The position numbers and the translations under genes are program-made. From the NCBI RefSeq assembly GCF_900114315.1, contig NZ_FOSQ01000001.1, positions 846,202 through 910,201 of the forward strand: DNA of 64,000 nucleotides. The letters run 5' to 3'. Shown here one piece after another: positions 35,273 to 43,196 of this stretch; position 1 is the first letter of the stretch; each line of letters opens with the position of its first letter. Source of the DNA: Falsiroseomonas stagni DSM 19981. GTDB lineage: Bacteria > Pseudomonadota > Alphaproteobacteria > Acetobacterales > Acetobacteraceae. Under the pieces are notes generated by a model. That model was given only the letters and a program-made list of their open reading frames with translations. It did no database searches and had not been told where the DNA came from.

Positions 35273-35344
35273 CGACCAAACCCACGACTTCACGCGCCGC
35301 CGCGCTGGGTTATGCTGTCCCCAATCAACCAAGGGGGACGTGCC

Positions 35345-36046
35345 ATGGCGGAAGACCTGGAAAAGCTCGCGAAATGGCGGGGCTTCGTGCCGGATGAGGA
35401 ACTGGAGACCTATCGCAAGGGCGGTTTCGCGCGGCGCATCGGGATCGGTCGCCGACCGGCGCTGCTGAACATCGATACCACCTACATGTTCGTCGATCCC
35501 GCCTATTCGCAATGCGGGCGGGAGATGCCGGAACTGCTGGCGTCCCTGACGCGGCTGACGGCACTGTTCCGCAAGCTGGACCTGCCGATCTACTATTCGC
35601 GGCGCGACGACCGCACCCATCCCAGCTATCGCGGCATCTGGAACCTCAAGCTCGGCACCGCCGGAGATTACCAATACAGCCGCGATCCCCGCGCCGATGA
35701 ATGGCCGGAGGCCTATGCACCGCGGGAGCAGGACCGGGTCGTGATGAAGAACAAGCCGTCCTGCTTCTTCGCGACGCCGCTGGAGGCGTTCCTGCGCTAC
35801 GACGAGGTCGATACCGTCATCATCTGCGGCATCAGCACCTCCGGCTGCGTCCGCGCGGGGGCGATGGACGCCTTCTCCCACAATTTCCGCACGGTGCTGG
35901 TGGAGGATGCCTGCGGGGATCGCAGCCCGAGCGCGCATCGCGCCAATCTTTTTGATCTCGACATGAAATTCGCGGATGTCGAGAGCCTGGACTATGTGGA
36001 GCGGGAGCTGACGGCGCGGTTCGCGCTGCCCCGCGCGGCGGAGTGA
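35345..36046 (+). CDS. Isochorismatase-family hydrolase (N-carbamoylsarcosine-amidase-like)
   Basis: Cysteine hydrolase of 233 aa. The likely catalytic triad is Asp44 (LLNIDTTYMFVDP), Lys137 (VMKNKPSCFFATPLEAFL) and Cys168 (ICGISTSGCVRAGAMDAFS). The spacing and STSGCVRA motif match the amidohydrolase branch that acts on N-carbamoyl compounds and ureides. The ATG at 35345 has AAGGGGGA 8-10 nt upstream. Its position after a polyamine-type importer and an Fe(II)/2OG oxygenase suggests breakdown of an imported nitrogen compound; the substrate is not defined. Confidence 0.88.
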   Translation: MAEDLEKLAKWRGFVPDEELETYRKGGFARRIGIGRRPALLNIDTTYMFVDPAYSQCGREMPELLASLTRLTALFRKLDLPIYYSRRDDRTHPSYRGIWNLKLGTAGDYQYSRDPRADEWPEAYAPREQDRVVMKNKPSCFFATPLEAFLRYDEVDTVIICGISTSGCVRAGAMDAFSHNFRTVLVEDACGDRSPSAHRANLFDLDMKFADVESLDYVERELTARFALPRAAE

Positions 36047-36077: not shown

Positions 36078-36545
36078 ATGATGCCCCACGAGGGCGGCGG
36101 CGGCGGCCGCGGCGGGCTGTTCGCGCTGTCCTATGTCAGCCGCGCGGTGGAACCTGACAGCGGCAGTCTGCATCGCGTGGCGCGGGAGATCGCGGAACAT
36201 GCCGGCGCCCGCAACGGGAGTGTTTGCCTCACCGGGGCGCTCTGCCTTGGTGACGGATGCTTCGCGCAGGTGCTGGAAGGCCCGGGCCCCGCGGTGCTGG
36301 ACACTTTCGACCGCATCCTGCTGGACCCGCGGCACCGGGATGTGCGGCTGCTGGAATTCGTCCCCATCGCATCCCGCCGCTTCGCGGGACGGAGCATGGC
36401 GTTCTCCGGCGAATTGGCGCCCGGCATCCTGGCCGGTGCCGCGGTGGAGCACCGGTTGATGGAACGCCTGGGCCGCGGCAGCGTGGCGCACCAGGCGCAG
36501 GTGATCGCCACCGCGATGGAGGCAGGCCTGCGCCCGATCGCCTGA
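36078..36545 (+). CDS. BLUF-domain protein
   Basis: Protein of 155 aa with a BLUF (FAD blue-light sensor) domain. Residues aligned to the flavin network are Tyr19 (ALSYVSRA), Asn46 (ARNGSVCLTGAL), Gln64 (CFAQVLEGP) and Met107. Spacing from Asn46 to Gln64 (18) and to Met107 (61) equals that of AppA. At the position of the semi-conserved Trp, FAGRSMAF has Arg105. An N-terminal Gly-rich tail precedes the domain and a short helix follows from about 118. It is a stand-alone short BLUF without an output domain, so it would act through a partner. It converges with the nitrile hydratase gene, 2 bp apart. Confidence 0.85.
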   Translation: MMPHEGGGGGRGGLFALSYVSRAVEPDSGSLHRVAREIAEHAGARNGSVCLTGALCLGDGCFAQVLEGPGPAVLDTFDRILLDPRHRDVRLLEFVPIASRRFAGRSMAFSGELAPGILAGAAVEHRLMERLGRGSVAHQAQVIATAMEAGLRPIA

Positions 36546-36547
36546 TC

Positions 36548-37561
36548 TCAGGGCGCGCGCGCGGTGGTGACGCCGATCATCGAATCCCGGGTCACGAGCG
36601 TGGCGAGGCGCGTCTCCTCCCAGCCCTCCGTGCCCGCCGGACGGGCGGGGATGACGAGGTAGCGGAGCTCCGCATTGCTGTCATGGACGCGCAACTCCGT
36701 GCCCGGCGGCAGTTCCGTGCCGAATTCGCGGAGGATGCCGCGGGGGTCCCGCACCGCGCGGGCGCGGTAGGCGCGGCTTTTGTACCAGGCGGGCGGGCGG
36801 CCGATGATGGTGCGGGGGTAGCAGGAGCAGAGCGTGCAGACGACGAGGTGATGGCGATCCGCGGTGTTGAACAGCGCCGCCAGCTTCGTCCCCGCCGCGT
36901 CCAGCCCCAACTCCTTCACCGCCGCCGGCGCATCCGCCGCCAGCCGCGCGGCGAAATCCGCATCAACCCAGGCGCGCGCCACCACCGCGGCGCCGTCATG
37001 CGGGCTGCGGGCATCCATCCGCTCGATCTCCGCGCGGATTTCCTCCGGTGTCAGCACGCCCTTGGCGACGATGAGGTTGCGGACCGCCATGCCGCGGAGA
37101 CGCAGGGGGGAGAGCACCGTCTCCCCGGCATCGTGATCCGCCTGGTAGGGATGATCGTCGTCATGGTCATGGTCATGGTCGTGGTCATGGTCGTGGTCAT
37201 GACCATGGTGGTGCCCGGCGGCCTCGTCCTCCACGCGGTCGAGCCCCTCGGCGCGCAGCCGCGCCTCCTCCGCCTCCAGCGCCGCGATCGTCAGCGTGCC
37301 TTTCTCCAGCAGCAGGGATGAGAAGGCGAGGATCCAGCGTTCGTAGTATGGCATCGCCCAGTAGGTGGCGTCATCGAGCTGTTCCTGCACGCGCCGGCTC
37401 TCATCGGTGGTGAAGAGCCGCCGCCTGCCGTCGGCCAGCAGCATGCGGATGGCGTCCGCCTCGCGCTCCCAATGCGCGGCCTCATGCTCCTCCCGCTCCA
37501 CCGGGCCGTCGTAGCGGCCGCCGGCATCGTGCGGCGGATGGGTGGGGGGCAGGTCGTGCAT
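36548..37561 (-). CDS. Fused nitrile hydratase: beta N-terminal half plus cobalt-type alpha subunit
   Basis: Protein of 337 aa; start ATG 37561 with GAGGAA 8 nt upstream. Residues 1-115 resemble the N-terminal half of the nitrile hydratase beta subunit (EEHEAAHWEREADAIRMLLA, YYERWILAFSSLLLEKGTLT). Residues 117-144 are a His/Asp tract (HHHGHDHDHDHDHDHDHDDD, then HPYQADHD). Residues 150-337 are a complete alpha subunit with metal motif VVCTLCSCYP (Cys242, 245, 247) and C-terminal RPAGTEG...LVTRDSMIG. CTLCSC marks the cobalt-type. The C-terminal SH3-like half of beta, with its catalytic arginine, is absent from the window, as is an activator gene. It would hydrate nitriles to amides, or hydrolyse thiocyanate, if the missing half is supplied. 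Confidence 0.85.
   Translation of the reverse strand: MHDLPPTHPPHDAGGRYDGPVEREEHEAAHWEREADAIRMLLADGRRRLFTTDESRRVQEQLDDATYWAMPYYERWILAFSSLLLEKGTLTIAALEAEEARLRAEGLDRVEDEAAGHHHGHDHDHDHDHDHDHDDDHPYQADHDAGETVLSPLRLRGMAVRNLIVAKGVLTPEEIRAEIERMDARSPHDGAAVVARAWVDADFAARLAADAPAAVKELGLDAAGTKLAALFNTADRHHLVVCTLCSCYPRTIIGRPPAWYKSRAYRARAVRDPRGILREFGTELPPGTELRVHDSNAELRYLVIPARPAGTEGWEETRLATLVTRDSMIGVTTARAP
37160..37206 (-). repeat. 6-bp tandem repeat encoding the His-Asp linker
   Basis: On the plus strand CATGGT/CGTGGT units repeat about seven times, giving alternating His and Asp codons (CAT/CAC and GAC) on the minus strand. Such arrays can gain or lose units by slippage without frameshift. Third-base changes show it is not a single recent expansion. 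Confidence 0.8.
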
Positions 37562-37677
37562 GGCGGCGTTCCTCGGTGCTTGGGCGCAGGCTATCGGCGC
37601 GGACGCATCGCCGGAAGCCTCGACAGGCGGCGCGACACAGACGAGCATCCGGGCAACGACAACGGGAGAACGAACCA

Positions 37678-38655
37678 ATGCTTCGCCGCGTGCTGCTTGC
37701 CGCCCCCGCCCTGCTGGCCCTGCCGGGCATCGCCCGTGCCCAGGCCTGGCCGCAGCGCGACCTTCGCCTGATCGTGCCCTTTCCGCCGGGCGGCACCACG
37801 GATGTGGTCGCGCGCATGCTGGCGGGCGCGATGCGGGAGAGGATCGGCCGCGCCGTGGTGGTGGAGAACCAGCCGGGCGCGGGCAGCACCACGGCCGCCG
37901 GGCGATTCGCACGCGAAGCGGATGACCATGCGCTGTTCCTGTCGCAGATCGCGTCCCACGCGATCGGCCCCGCGCTGTTCCCCAACCTGCCCTACGACCC
38001 CGAGCGTGATTTCCGCGCGGTGACGCTGGTGGTGACGGTGCCGAATGTCTGGGTGGCGAATGCGCGCAACGTGCCGGGCGGCGATGTGCGCGCCCTGCTG
38101 CGCGATGCCCGCGCGCGGCCGATGATCCGCACCTTCGCCTCCGCCGGCAACGGCACCTCGACCCACCTGACCGGGGAGCTGATCGCGCAATTGGCGCGCG
38201 CGCCGATGCAGCATGTGCCCTATCGCGGCGCCGGGCCCGGCATGGCGGCGGTGATGGGCGGGGAGGTCGATACCTTCATCGACAACCTGCCCACCGCCAT
38301 CCCGCAGATCCGCGCCGGCACGGTGGTGGCGCTGGCGGTGACATCGCGGGCGCGGCTGCCGGACCTGCCCGATGTGCCGGCGCTGTCCGAACTGGGTGAG
38401 GAATTCGGCCTGGCGGGCTTCGAGGCGGAAGCCTGGTTCGGCCTGCACGCCCATCGCAGCGCGCCGGATGCGGTGGTGGACAGCATGGCGGATGCCGCCC
38501 GCGCGGCGCTGGCCGATCCGGGCTTCGTACGGCAACTGGCGGAGCGCGGCACGCAGGCCCGGGGCGGCCCGCCGGCCGACTATGCCGCGCTGGTGGCGGC
38601 GGAGCGCATCCGCTGGCGGGACGTGGTGCGCCAAGGGAACATCCGGGCCGATTGA
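37678..38655 (+). CDS. Bug/TctC-family tripartite tricarboxylate transporter receptor
   Basis: Periplasmic binding protein of 325 aa. The signal peptide MLRRVLLAAPALLALPGIARA precedes the standard opening WPQRDLRLIVPFPPGGTTDV followed by VARMLAGAMRERIG. Later marks are VVVENQPGAGSTTAAGRFAR and the PYDPERDFRAVTL loop, and the QHVPYRGAGPGMAAVMGGEV strand. This family is greatly expanded in Acetobacteraceae and betaproteobacteria; members bind carboxylates but most ligands are unknown. Start ATG 37678 with GGGAGAACG upstream. TctA/TctB membrane genes are not adjacent. Confidence 0.93.
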   Translation: MLRRVLLAAPALLALPGIARAQAWPQRDLRLIVPFPPGGTTDVVARMLAGAMRERIGRAVVVENQPGAGSTTAAGRFAREADDHALFLSQIASHAIGPALFPNLPYDPERDFRAVTLVVTVPNVWVANARNVPGGDVRALLRDARARPMIRTFASAGNGTSTHLTGELIAQLARAPMQHVPYRGAGPGMAAVMGGEVDTFIDNLPTAIPQIRAGTVVALAVTSRARLPDLPDVPALSELGEEFGLAGFEAEAWFGLHAHRSAPDAVVDSMADAARAALADPGFVRQLAERGTQARGGPPADYAALVAAERIRWRDVVRQGNIRAD

Positions 38656-41020: not shown

Positions 41021-43087
41021 TTACGCGCCCCCACCCAGTGCTTCGAGGACCACGCCCTCGGTCAGGATCTGCGGCAGCACCACGGGCGCGGCGGCGCCGG
41101 GCGCCCAGAACAGGTACAGCGGCACGCCATCCCGCCCCTGGTCGCGCAGCAGGGCCGTGATGGCGGGGTCGCCGCGCGTCCAATCCGCCTTGAGGTAGGC
41201 GACCCCCCGGGCCGCGAAGGCGTCCCGGACGGCGGAGGCCCGGAGCGCGACCCGTTCATTCACCTGGCAGGTGATGCACCAGGCGGCGGTGGCGTTGACG
41301 AAGACGGGGCGGCCTTCCGCGCGCAGGGCCTCCACCCGCGCGGCGGACCAGGGCTCGGCGCCCGGATCGGCGGCGGCGGCCGCGGCGGGGGCGGCGGAGA
41401 GGCGCGGCAGCAGGGCGACGGCGACGATGACGGCAAGGCCCATGCCGATGGCGCCCGCCACGCGTCCGCGCGGCGCGCCGGCCTGCTGCGCCAGGCCGAG
41501 GCCCCAGAGCCCGGCCGCCAGCACCACCGCGCCGCCGAGGCCGAACAGCACGCCATCCGGCCCCGCCTGCTGCGCCAGCACCCAGACCAGCCAGGCGCTC
41601 GCGCCATACATCGGGAAGGCGAGGCCCTGGCGCAGCCTTTCCATCCAGGGGCCGGGACGGGGCAGCCGCCGCGCCAGCCCGGGAAAGACGCCAAGCAGCG
41701 CATAGGGCAGCGCCAGGCCGAGGCCGAGGGCCAGGAACACCGCCATGGTCCCCGCCGGCGGCATGACCAGCGCGGCGCCGAGCGCCGCCGCCATGAAGGG
41801 CGCCGTGCAGGGCGTGGCCAGCAGCACCGCGAGGCCGCCCGTGGCGAAGGCGCCGAGATGCCCGCCGCGCCCCGCCACCGACTGGCCCGCGCCGACCGTG
41901 GCGCCCATGGCGAAGACGCCCGACAGGTTCAGACCCACCGCCAGCATCAGCCAGGCCATGACGGCGACGAAGGCGGGTTCGGTGAACTGGAAGCCCCAGC
42001 CGGCGGCGCTGCCGCCCGCCCGCAGCGCGATCAGCGCGCCGCCGACCAGCGCGAAGCACACCAGCACCCCCGCGGTGTAGCTGGCGGCATGCAGCCGCAC
42101 CTCCCGCGCCGCGCCGCCGGACAGGCGCGCGAGGCCGATGGCCTTCATCGCCAGCACGGGGAAGACGCAGGGCATCAGGTTCAGGATCAGCCCGCCGGCC
42201 AGGGCCAGCAGCATGGCGTGCCACAGCGCAAGGCCGCCCGCGGCCTCCGGCGGGCCGCCAACGCCGGTGGAGACATCGAAGCCCGCGCGCTGCCCGCCGC
42301 CATCGCGCAGCACGACCGTCCCGTCGATCGATCCGGGCGTGGCGACGCCTTGCGCCAGGGTCAGGCCGATGGTCAGCGACCCGTCCCGCACCGTCACGGC
42401 CTGGGGCGCGGTGTTGTCCAGCAGGCCGGGCTCCGCCGGGAAGAACAGCGCATCCTTCACCGCGGCCGGGCCGATGCCGGCGCCCGCCAGCGTCAGGCTC
42501 GCCCGCCCGCCACCCGCGCCGGCGCGGGCCTGCCAGGGGGAGGGGCGCGCCAGCCGCGCCTCCGCCGCCTCGAACCAGGGTGCCGCGATGGGAGAGGGCA
42601 CGGCACGCGGCGCGACCGGAATGGTGAGGGTGAAGACCCCCTCCTCCGGGATGCAGACATCGGCGCAGACCAGCCAGCTGGCCTCCGCCCGTAAGGCCAG
42701 CGAATCCCCGGTGAAGCCGGCGGGCAGGCTGACCGGCAGCGGCAGCAGGACCTCGTTCTTGTAGCCGTAGTTCACCAGCGGGCCGTAGGGGATGCGGTCC
42801 GGGATCGGCCACTGGATCGCGCCGGCGGAAACGCCTTCCGGCAGCGTGAGCGTGACTTCCGGCGGCGCGCCCGCATCGCCGGCATTGCGCCAGTAGGTGT
42901 GCCAGCCCTCCGCCAGGCGCAGCCGCAGGCCGAGGCGGAACGCCTCGCCCGGCGCCACGGCGGCGACATCCGCGGCGAGGGTGACGGTGGCGCGGGGGGA
43001 ACGGGCAGGCGCGCTTTCCACCGCCTGGGCGGCCAGGGGCAGGGCAGCCAGGGTCAGGCCGAGCAGGAGGGCCGGGAGGCGCGACAT
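41021..43087 (-). CDS. DsbD/ScsB-family thiol-disulfide interchange protein
   Basis: Membrane protein of 688 aa that carries electrons from cytosolic thioredoxin to periplasmic substrates. Order of domains: signal peptide (LPALLLGLTLAALPLAAQAV), N-terminal periplasmic immunoglobulin-like domain with Cys pair WLVCADVCIPEEG, eight-helix transmembrane domain with PCVFPVLAMK and ATPCTAPFMAAALG, and a C-terminal thioredoxin domain with AAWCITCQVNE (CITC). This three-part layout is that of DsbD, and the CITC with long N-terminal part fits the ScsB branch. Start ATG 43087; the longer frame has no signal. It may serve the DsbA-like protein and metal-stress proteins. Confidence 0.92.
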   Translation of the reverse strand: MSRLPALLLGLTLAALPLAAQAVESAPARSPRATVTLAADVAAVAPGEAFRLGLRLRLAEGWHTYWRNAGDAGAPPEVTLTLPEGVSAGAIQWPIPDRIPYGPLVNYGYKNEVLLPLPVSLPAGFTGDSLALRAEASWLVCADVCIPEEGVFTLTIPVAPRAVPSPIAAPWFEAAEARLARPSPWQARAGAGGGRASLTLAGAGIGPAAVKDALFFPAEPGLLDNTAPQAVTVRDGSLTIGLTLAQGVATPGSIDGTVVLRDGGGQRAGFDVSTGVGGPPEAAGGLALWHAMLLALAGGLILNLMPCVFPVLAMKAIGLARLSGGAAREVRLHAASYTAGVLVCFALVGGALIALRAGGSAAGWGFQFTEPAFVAVMAWLMLAVGLNLSGVFAMGATVGAGQSVAGRGGHLGAFATGGLAVLLATPCTAPFMAAALGAALVMPPAGTMAVFLALGLGLALPYALLGVFPGLARRLPRPGPWMERLRQGLAFPMYGASAWLVWVLAQQAGPDGVLFGLGGAVVLAAGLWGLGLAQQAGAPRGRVAGAIGMGLAVIVAVALLPRLSAAPAAAAAADPGAEPWSAARVEALRAEGRPVFVNATAAWCITCQVNERVALRASAVRDAFAARGVAYLKADWTRGDPAITALLRDQGRDGVPLYLFWAPGAAAPVVLPQILTEGVVLEALGGGA

Positions 43088-43196
43088 GGGGAGGTGTCTA
43101 GCATGGAATGCGCCCAGCGCAGCGCGAGGGAGCATTTCGGCGTGTAACGAGGCCGCACCCCCCGCCAGGGGCGTGACGCCCCAGGACCGTCAGCCG

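Follow-up and report, generated by a model that had tools for sequence, protein, structure and literature searches.

A bacterial nitrile hydratase-like gene joining the N-terminal half of the beta subunit to alpha, with the C-terminal half of beta encoded at a separate locus

The described systems closest to the gene analysed here include enzymes whose beta subunit is split in two. In the AnhD-AnhE-AnhA system of Streptomyces canus, AnhD corresponds to the N-terminal half of beta (betaN), AnhE to the C-terminal half (betaC) and AnhA to alpha, and the toyocamycin enzyme has a split beta as well; according to the accessible text of PMC7329996, the S. canus system has no activator gene and the AnhD-AnhA complex forms without AnhE. 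The thiocyanate hydrolase (SCNase) of Thiobacillus thioparus is made of three separate chains. One-chain proteins in which beta precedes alpha, with a His-rich stretch between them, are described from Monosiga brevicollis and other eukaryotes (PMC2603476, PMC3323583), and the available part of PMC3323583, from 2012, gives such fusion genes as absent from prokaryotic datasets. A one-chain beta-alpha nitrile hydratase of Pseudomonas putida has been engineered, with a complete beta and a Pro-Gly linker (PMC4709657, partial text). Solo-subunit enzymes, from Rhodococcus aff. qingshengii and strain THI201, have no full beta partner; the accessible portion of PMC7193024 describes these as solo-subunit only and does not mention a betaN half fused to alpha.

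The gene analysed here lies in a 64,000-nucleotide stretch of the Falsiroseomonas stagni DSM 19981 genome, called the window throughout. It resembles the split-beta enzymes of S. canus and of toyocamycin biosynthesis but differs from them in that betaN and alpha form one chain, with betaC outside the operon; it likewise differs from the eukaryotic fusions, which carry a complete beta, and from the artificial P. putida construct. No description of a bacterial betaN-alpha fusion was found in the titles and abstract openings searched, most subscription papers lying beyond reach, nor in the accessible text of PMC7193024, PMC3323583, PMC2603476, PMC4709657 and PMC7329996, and the words 'fusion' and 'fused' do not occur in the available text of PMC10098168. 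The features of the locus are as follows.

35312..36046, plus strand: isochorismatase-family hydrolase, possibly an amide hydrolase (PF00857, E 2.3e-30)
36548..37561, minus strand: betaN-alpha fusion gene, 337 residues plus stop, N-terminus MHDLPP (single frame, Pfam, relatives)
36566..37099, minus strand: alpha domain NHase_alpha, PF02979, residues 155-332 (E 2.7e-75, 252.2 bits, cut-off 27.2)
36821..36838, minus strand: CTLCSC metal-binding claw motif, residues 242-247 (sequence, relatives)
37130..37213, minus strand: His/Asp tract with HPYQADHD, residues 117-144, probably an inherited N-terminal tail of alpha
37229..37534, minus strand: betaN domain NHase_beta_N, PF21006, residues 10-111 (E 6.3e-20, 71.8 bits, cut-off 21.5)
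37346..37348, minus strand: codon of Tyr72, the equivalent of betaTyr72 (13-row alignment and partial text of PMC7193024)
37394..37396, minus strand: codon of Arg56, the equivalent of the catalytic betaArg56 (13-row alignment and partial text of PMC7193024)
37569..37574, minus strand: ribosome-binding-site-like GAGGAA, 7 nt upstream of the ATG (sequence)
37675..38655, plus strand: TctC/Bug-type substrate-binding protein, divergent neighbour (PF03401, E 1.7e-54)

An earlier note, made from the sequence alone, had described a single frame with a good ribosome-binding site that joins a beta-like N-terminus to a full alpha subunit, and the Pfam domains and the GAGGAA site bear this out on the minus strand, a strand that the note leaves unstated, the plus strand at 36548..37561 reading something different from the fusion protein. 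The CTLCSC motif and the His/Asp stretch were found at the residues given there. A GAGG- or AGGAG-like site precedes the gene in 7/8 fusion relatives inspected, L011 having no clear one. By its motif we take the CTLCSC claw to be of the cobalt type. NHase_beta_C (PF02211) is absent from the fusion protein in the Pfam search, and tblastn with two betaC queries (E 1e-3) gave no betaC match in the window; the absent half presumably holds the second claw-binding arginine of beta.

Equivalog models place the two halves of the protein without fixing its reaction. The fusion scores 241 with the nitrile hydratase alpha model TIGR01323, slightly under the cut-off of 249.85, and TIGR01323 thus does not assign the exact reaction. 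With the whole-beta model TIGR03888 it reaches 59.7 (cut-off 152.2) and covers only positions 4-109 of 226, and with the SCNase gamma model TIGR03887 it scores 185.5, below the cut-off of 291.45. With the P14K-type activator model TIGR03889 it scores 12.4 (cut-off 46); these scores, 59.7 bits for the beta model and 12.4 here, are what speaks against reading the N-terminal half as an activator. Among solved structures the N-terminal half matches, by sequence, beta chains both of SCNase (2dd4_B, E 6.9e-11) and of other solved beta subunits (3qz9_B, E 2e-8), and the earlier note's reservation that this half might align only to unrelated helical proteins therefore falls away. The alpha part resembles nitrile hydratases of the cobalt type and also 2dd4_C, the gamma chain of SCNase (E 7.3e-48). 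Both halves have counterparts in the T. thioparus enzyme, although the latter is three separate chains and the fusion stays under the SCNase gamma cut-off. An AlphaFold model built with the alpha-row alignment (pLDDT 79, pTM 0.73) has a helical N-terminal half, and its alpha domain matches 1ire_A in Foldseek (rmsd 1.5, TM by target 0.85); to beta chains this model gave only weak matches (E 0.02 and up, rmsd 8-13). The model from the betaN-row alignment reached pLDDT 64 and pTM 0.50. Confidence is low at residues 113-138 and 142-149, over the His/Asp tract.

The fusion gene is real. It is present as one frame in 10/15 genomes of the genus, the window's included, the other 5/15 having a three-gene operon and no fusion. 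Each of the nine relatives within the genus has the gene in one frame, with 74-93% identity to the window copy, and ten further single-frame fusions lie outside it (L059, from a Roseomonas MAG, and L082-L090); across the family sample the fusion was detected in 14/299 genomes from four genera (E 1e-85). The 20 family fusions (the window, 18 other genomes and the Roseomonas MAG) align end to end as single open frames, the sole exception in length being one copy, in the genus, that starts at a contig edge. Over 190 pairs, betaN and alpha have median dN/dS values of 0.30 and 0.25, and both halves are under similar purifying selection. Arg56 and Tyr72 are invariant in 13 aligned betaN halves, taken from two fusions and eleven non-fused loci that include two-gene and SCNase-type loci, and the claw reads CTLCSC in 19/20 family fusions, with CMLCSC in G083 (L088, L121) as the only exception. 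A frameshift in close relatives, which the earlier note had allowed for, was not seen in any of these nineteen, and a frameshift or assembly error was rejected since the relatives are all single open frames. That the gene is an artefact or is decaying has a negligible probability, given the open frames in 20/20 family sequences and in five from another family (f26, the window's own being f1), and dN/dS well below 1 in betaN and alpha alike.

The His/Asp tract has a different standing from that first proposed for it. The earlier note had suggested that it collects cobalt for the fusion, replacing a metallochaperone; however, His/Asp-rich tails stand on the free alpha subunits of 8/8 non-fused three-gene relatives (L060-L067, gene order betaN-betaC-alpha), with 6-16 His within up to 45 residues preceding the alpha domain, and the tails of L061 and L064 also carry HPYxxDxD, the motif found after the tract in the window fusion. 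The tract as a fusion-specific linker was therefore rejected; the tails and the shared motif suggest instead that it is the tail of alpha and that the fusion is the operon minus betaC. No such tail was seen in 15 three-gene alphas of the genus (0-4 His, in a span reaching into upstream DNA). In some fusions the tract is short or eroded, the linker stretch holding 5 His in L089 and 6 in L090. According to PMC7193024 (partial text, citing Yang 2018), the Monosiga enzyme does not need its (His)17 for metal incorporation. As for a dedicated metallochaperone, the search of the window's genome for the P14K-type activator that the earlier note had proposed to look for gave no gene over the TIGR03889 cut-off.

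The same note had supposed that the first half of a split beta is fused to alpha and that the second half is encoded elsewhere, and a search of the window's genome located that half. There is one betaC, at G000:C24:239810-240085 on another contig, within an intact betaN-betaC-alpha operon. The pattern is general among the genomes in which a betaN-alpha unit lacks betaC in cis: 24/24 (23 fused and one adjacent but unfused, tallied as 19 + 1 + 4) hold exactly one betaC over the cut-off elsewhere, meaning on a different contig or at a distant site, and in 22/24 it lies within a complete betaN-betaC-alpha operon. In the remaining two, the contig of G332 ends after betaC and the betaC of G083 stands without partners. 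The nearest case noticed is the Roseomonas MAG, in which the data suggest that fusion and betaC are about 76 kb apart on what is apparently one contig. betaC occurs in 181/299 family-sample genomes, and in 167/285 of those with no fusion hit (E 1e-85); thus betaC occurs without the fusion, and the fusion was never seen without betaC in the genomes checked. Since these genomes are related (four f1 genera, the Roseomonas MAG and two other families), the co-occurrence is given as a count and was not turned into a probability. The samples include incomplete genomes (G560 63%, G321 75%, G332 86%).

The fusion chain looks like a betaN-betaC-alpha operon from which the betaC gene is missing. Among the loci matched by the N-terminal half, at least 23, betaC adjoins betaN in 22 of those listed, only L059 being different. 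In the class sample of 385 genomes, fusions were found in G332 (two copies), G463 (two) and G560 (one), all f26, while in G515 betaN and alpha are adjacent and unfused with no betaC between them; ordinary three-gene operons are present in G413, G428, G491, G531, G622 and G685, other class-sample genomes over the limit. One fusion copy each in G332, G463 and G560 reads CSLCSC. We take this to be an iron-type motif. The genus g127 has fused paralogue pairs in G332 and G463, each of one CSLCSC and one CTLCSC copy. In G515 (L158, L131), betaN and a His-tailed alpha share a frame with a TAG between them, a possible unfused intermediate.

A concatenated betaN and alpha tree was built from 11/20 family fusions, all five f26 fusions and 33 others; L071 (a masked stretch) and L068 (alpha cut at a contig end) were left out of the trees. 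The f1 and f26 fusion groups are separate on it, and AU tests, with groups defined by gene order and family and tested after the tree was seen, rejected the f1 and f26 fusions as one clade (p 0.012) and f26 with G515 as one clade (p 0.0004). A single origin of all betaN-alpha units was thereby rejected, and the trees point to no fewer than two fusion events and three losses of betaC. The placement of the f1 fusion varies by tree: with the family's three-gene alphas, with two-gene alphas or, on the concatenated tree, outside all other three-gene rows. As a separate observation, the betaN, the betaC and the first part of alpha in L068, from a MAG labelled Bordetella parapertussis, closely resemble their counterparts in L066, from a Gammaproteobacteria MAG, and the L068 label is possibly a misclassification.

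G083 is the one genome in which betaC has outlived its operon partners. The region around it can be aligned, on either side of betaC, with the three-gene operon regions in the congeners G162 and G212, and by eye the remnants of its operon are the first residues of betaN and the last 34-39 or so codons of alpha. betaC itself is open across 97 aligned codons, with identities of 80% and 77% to the congeners, and the intact fusion lies on the same contig at a different site. Beyond the fusion, betaC and the alpha remnant, all tblastn matches had E above 0.01, in a search covering 2,028,502 bases of the 3,367,643-base contig, 2,500 of them N. For betaC, pN/pS is about 0.44 on the G083 branch versus 0.10 between the congeners, rates that rest on three sequences, G232 and G321 not being included; for the fusion the figures are about 0.34 versus 0.24. 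A betaC value that is below 1 yet raised means that early decay of this betaC is possible.

Among the neighbouring genes, an isochorismatase-family hydrolase recurs close to the fusion, being called there in 13/20 loci, and the TctC/Bug-type gene is a frequent divergent neighbour. A reasonable guess is that the locus combines a nitrile-to-amide-to-acid pair with an uptake protein. The 'conserved small genes' (cluster 3/14) upstream of the fusion were set aside, as they probably just mirror the TctC gene on its opposite strand. At 36078-36545 on the plus strand lies a gene for a BLUF-domain (blue-light sensor) protein, convergent with the fusion gene and ending 2 nt from its end; such a gene was called near the fusion in 4/20 loci, namely the window's and those of the three relatives closest to it. 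About 3.5 kb from the fusion, at 41024-43135 on the minus strand, is a gene for a DsbD-like thiol:disulfide interchange protein, which might have some connection with oxidation of the claw cysteines. Among L122-L129, genes of one cluster (a polysaccharide deacetylase by Pfam in L122) lie near the fusion in six loci of other genera, and an RraA-like cluster (by Pfam in L126) is near the fusion in three g126 loci, L126, L127 and L129.

We favour, at a probability of about 0.5, the reading that the gene encodes a split nitrile hydratase that betaC completes in trans. When a betaN-betaC-alpha arrangement lost its betaC gene, betaN would have come to run on into a His/Asp-tailed alpha; the cobalt claw would come from alpha, and Arg56 and Tyr72, in cis, from betaN, while the one betaC gene located elsewhere in the genome would provide in trans the SH3-like domain that bears the other active-site arginine. 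Such an enzyme would convert a nitrile, or a substrate resembling one, to the amide by hydration, and its betaN half may also help to load cobalt, as is reported for the homologue AnhD in S. canus. Alternatively, the fusion might be self-sufficient, alpha and betaN catalysing together, perhaps on a small or unusual substrate, with betaC dispensed with. We consider this rather unlikely, although the loss of cis betaC in three lineages and the similar selection on the two halves would suit it, as would the alpha subunit ToyJ, cited in the accessible text of PMC7329996 as active alone, and the solo-subunit nitrile hydratases cited in that of PMC7193024, one of them alphaproteobacterial (strain THI201). 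It has to be set against the retention of betaC in 24/24 such genomes and against the second arginine presumably lying in the missing half. The part of PMC4709657 available has both oxidised claw cysteines salt-bridged to two beta arginines, and states that P14K lacks 'the corresponding arginine', which of the two being left unspecified in that text; the roles of betaArg56 and betaTyr72 are given in PMC7193024 (partial text), the betaR56Y and betaR56E variants being reported inactive. In S. canus, betaN with alpha in the absence of betaC has 0.21% of full activity and 1.97% after in vitro loading (PMC7329996, Table 2), its holo form carrying 0.67 Co per protein, betaC with alpha has 4.17%, and alpha alone has none (all from the accessible part of that paper). 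These activities, the two-arginine claw and the conservation of Arg56 favour completion in trans over self-sufficiency, short of proof. The presence of betaC in 24/24 genomes, its separate losses from the cis locus and the case of G083 also count for completion in trans. Counterpoints are that in 22/24 genomes betaC belongs to a complete operon, which it would serve in any case, and that a duplication giving rise to the fusion, with the original retained, would by itself account for part of the co-occurrence.

That nearly constant presence of the three-gene enzyme (22/24) would also be explained if the fusion acted in maturation: as a covalently joined form of the betaN2-alpha intermediate, it would hand over cobalt, or the oxidised state of the claw, to the three-gene enzyme. 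The model has a precedent in AnhD, which the accessible text of PMC7329996 presents as a metal and subunit-swapping chaperone in the AnhD2A complex of S. canus, and it fits the window's genome in that no activator gene scored over the cut-off there. However, a fused alpha could presumably not be swapped out, although cobalt might still be transferred directly, the N-terminal half prefers the beta model to the activator model by the scores given above, and 5/15 genomes of the genus run a three-gene operon with no fusion. In G083, moreover, the fusion has been kept even with betaN and most of alpha gone from the operon, and overall we regard a maturation role as improbable. The earlier note's overall interpretation is partly supported: its half-beta reading holds, and the special role it gave to the His/Asp tract is not supported.

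A broader proposal, which we put forward tentatively and at somewhat short of even odds, is that in the Alphaproteobacteria betaC was lost at least three times, from fused or unfused units, and that each shortened enzyme shares and depends on one betaC at a separate locus, a single SH3-like domain completing two metalloenzymes or, in G083, the fusion alone. The gene described here would be a bacterial betaN-alpha nitrile hydratase fusion minus the domain thought to carry one active-site arginine, and it gives a natural setting in which to test what share of beta is required for nitrile hydratase function, as well as a good natural case for testing whether separate loci share a subunit. The data suggest that an active site may be assembled from parts encoded at two separate places. 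If betaC is indeed shared in trans, multi-subunit metalloenzymes can exchange parts between operons, and the arrangement would offer enzyme engineers a natural modular design.
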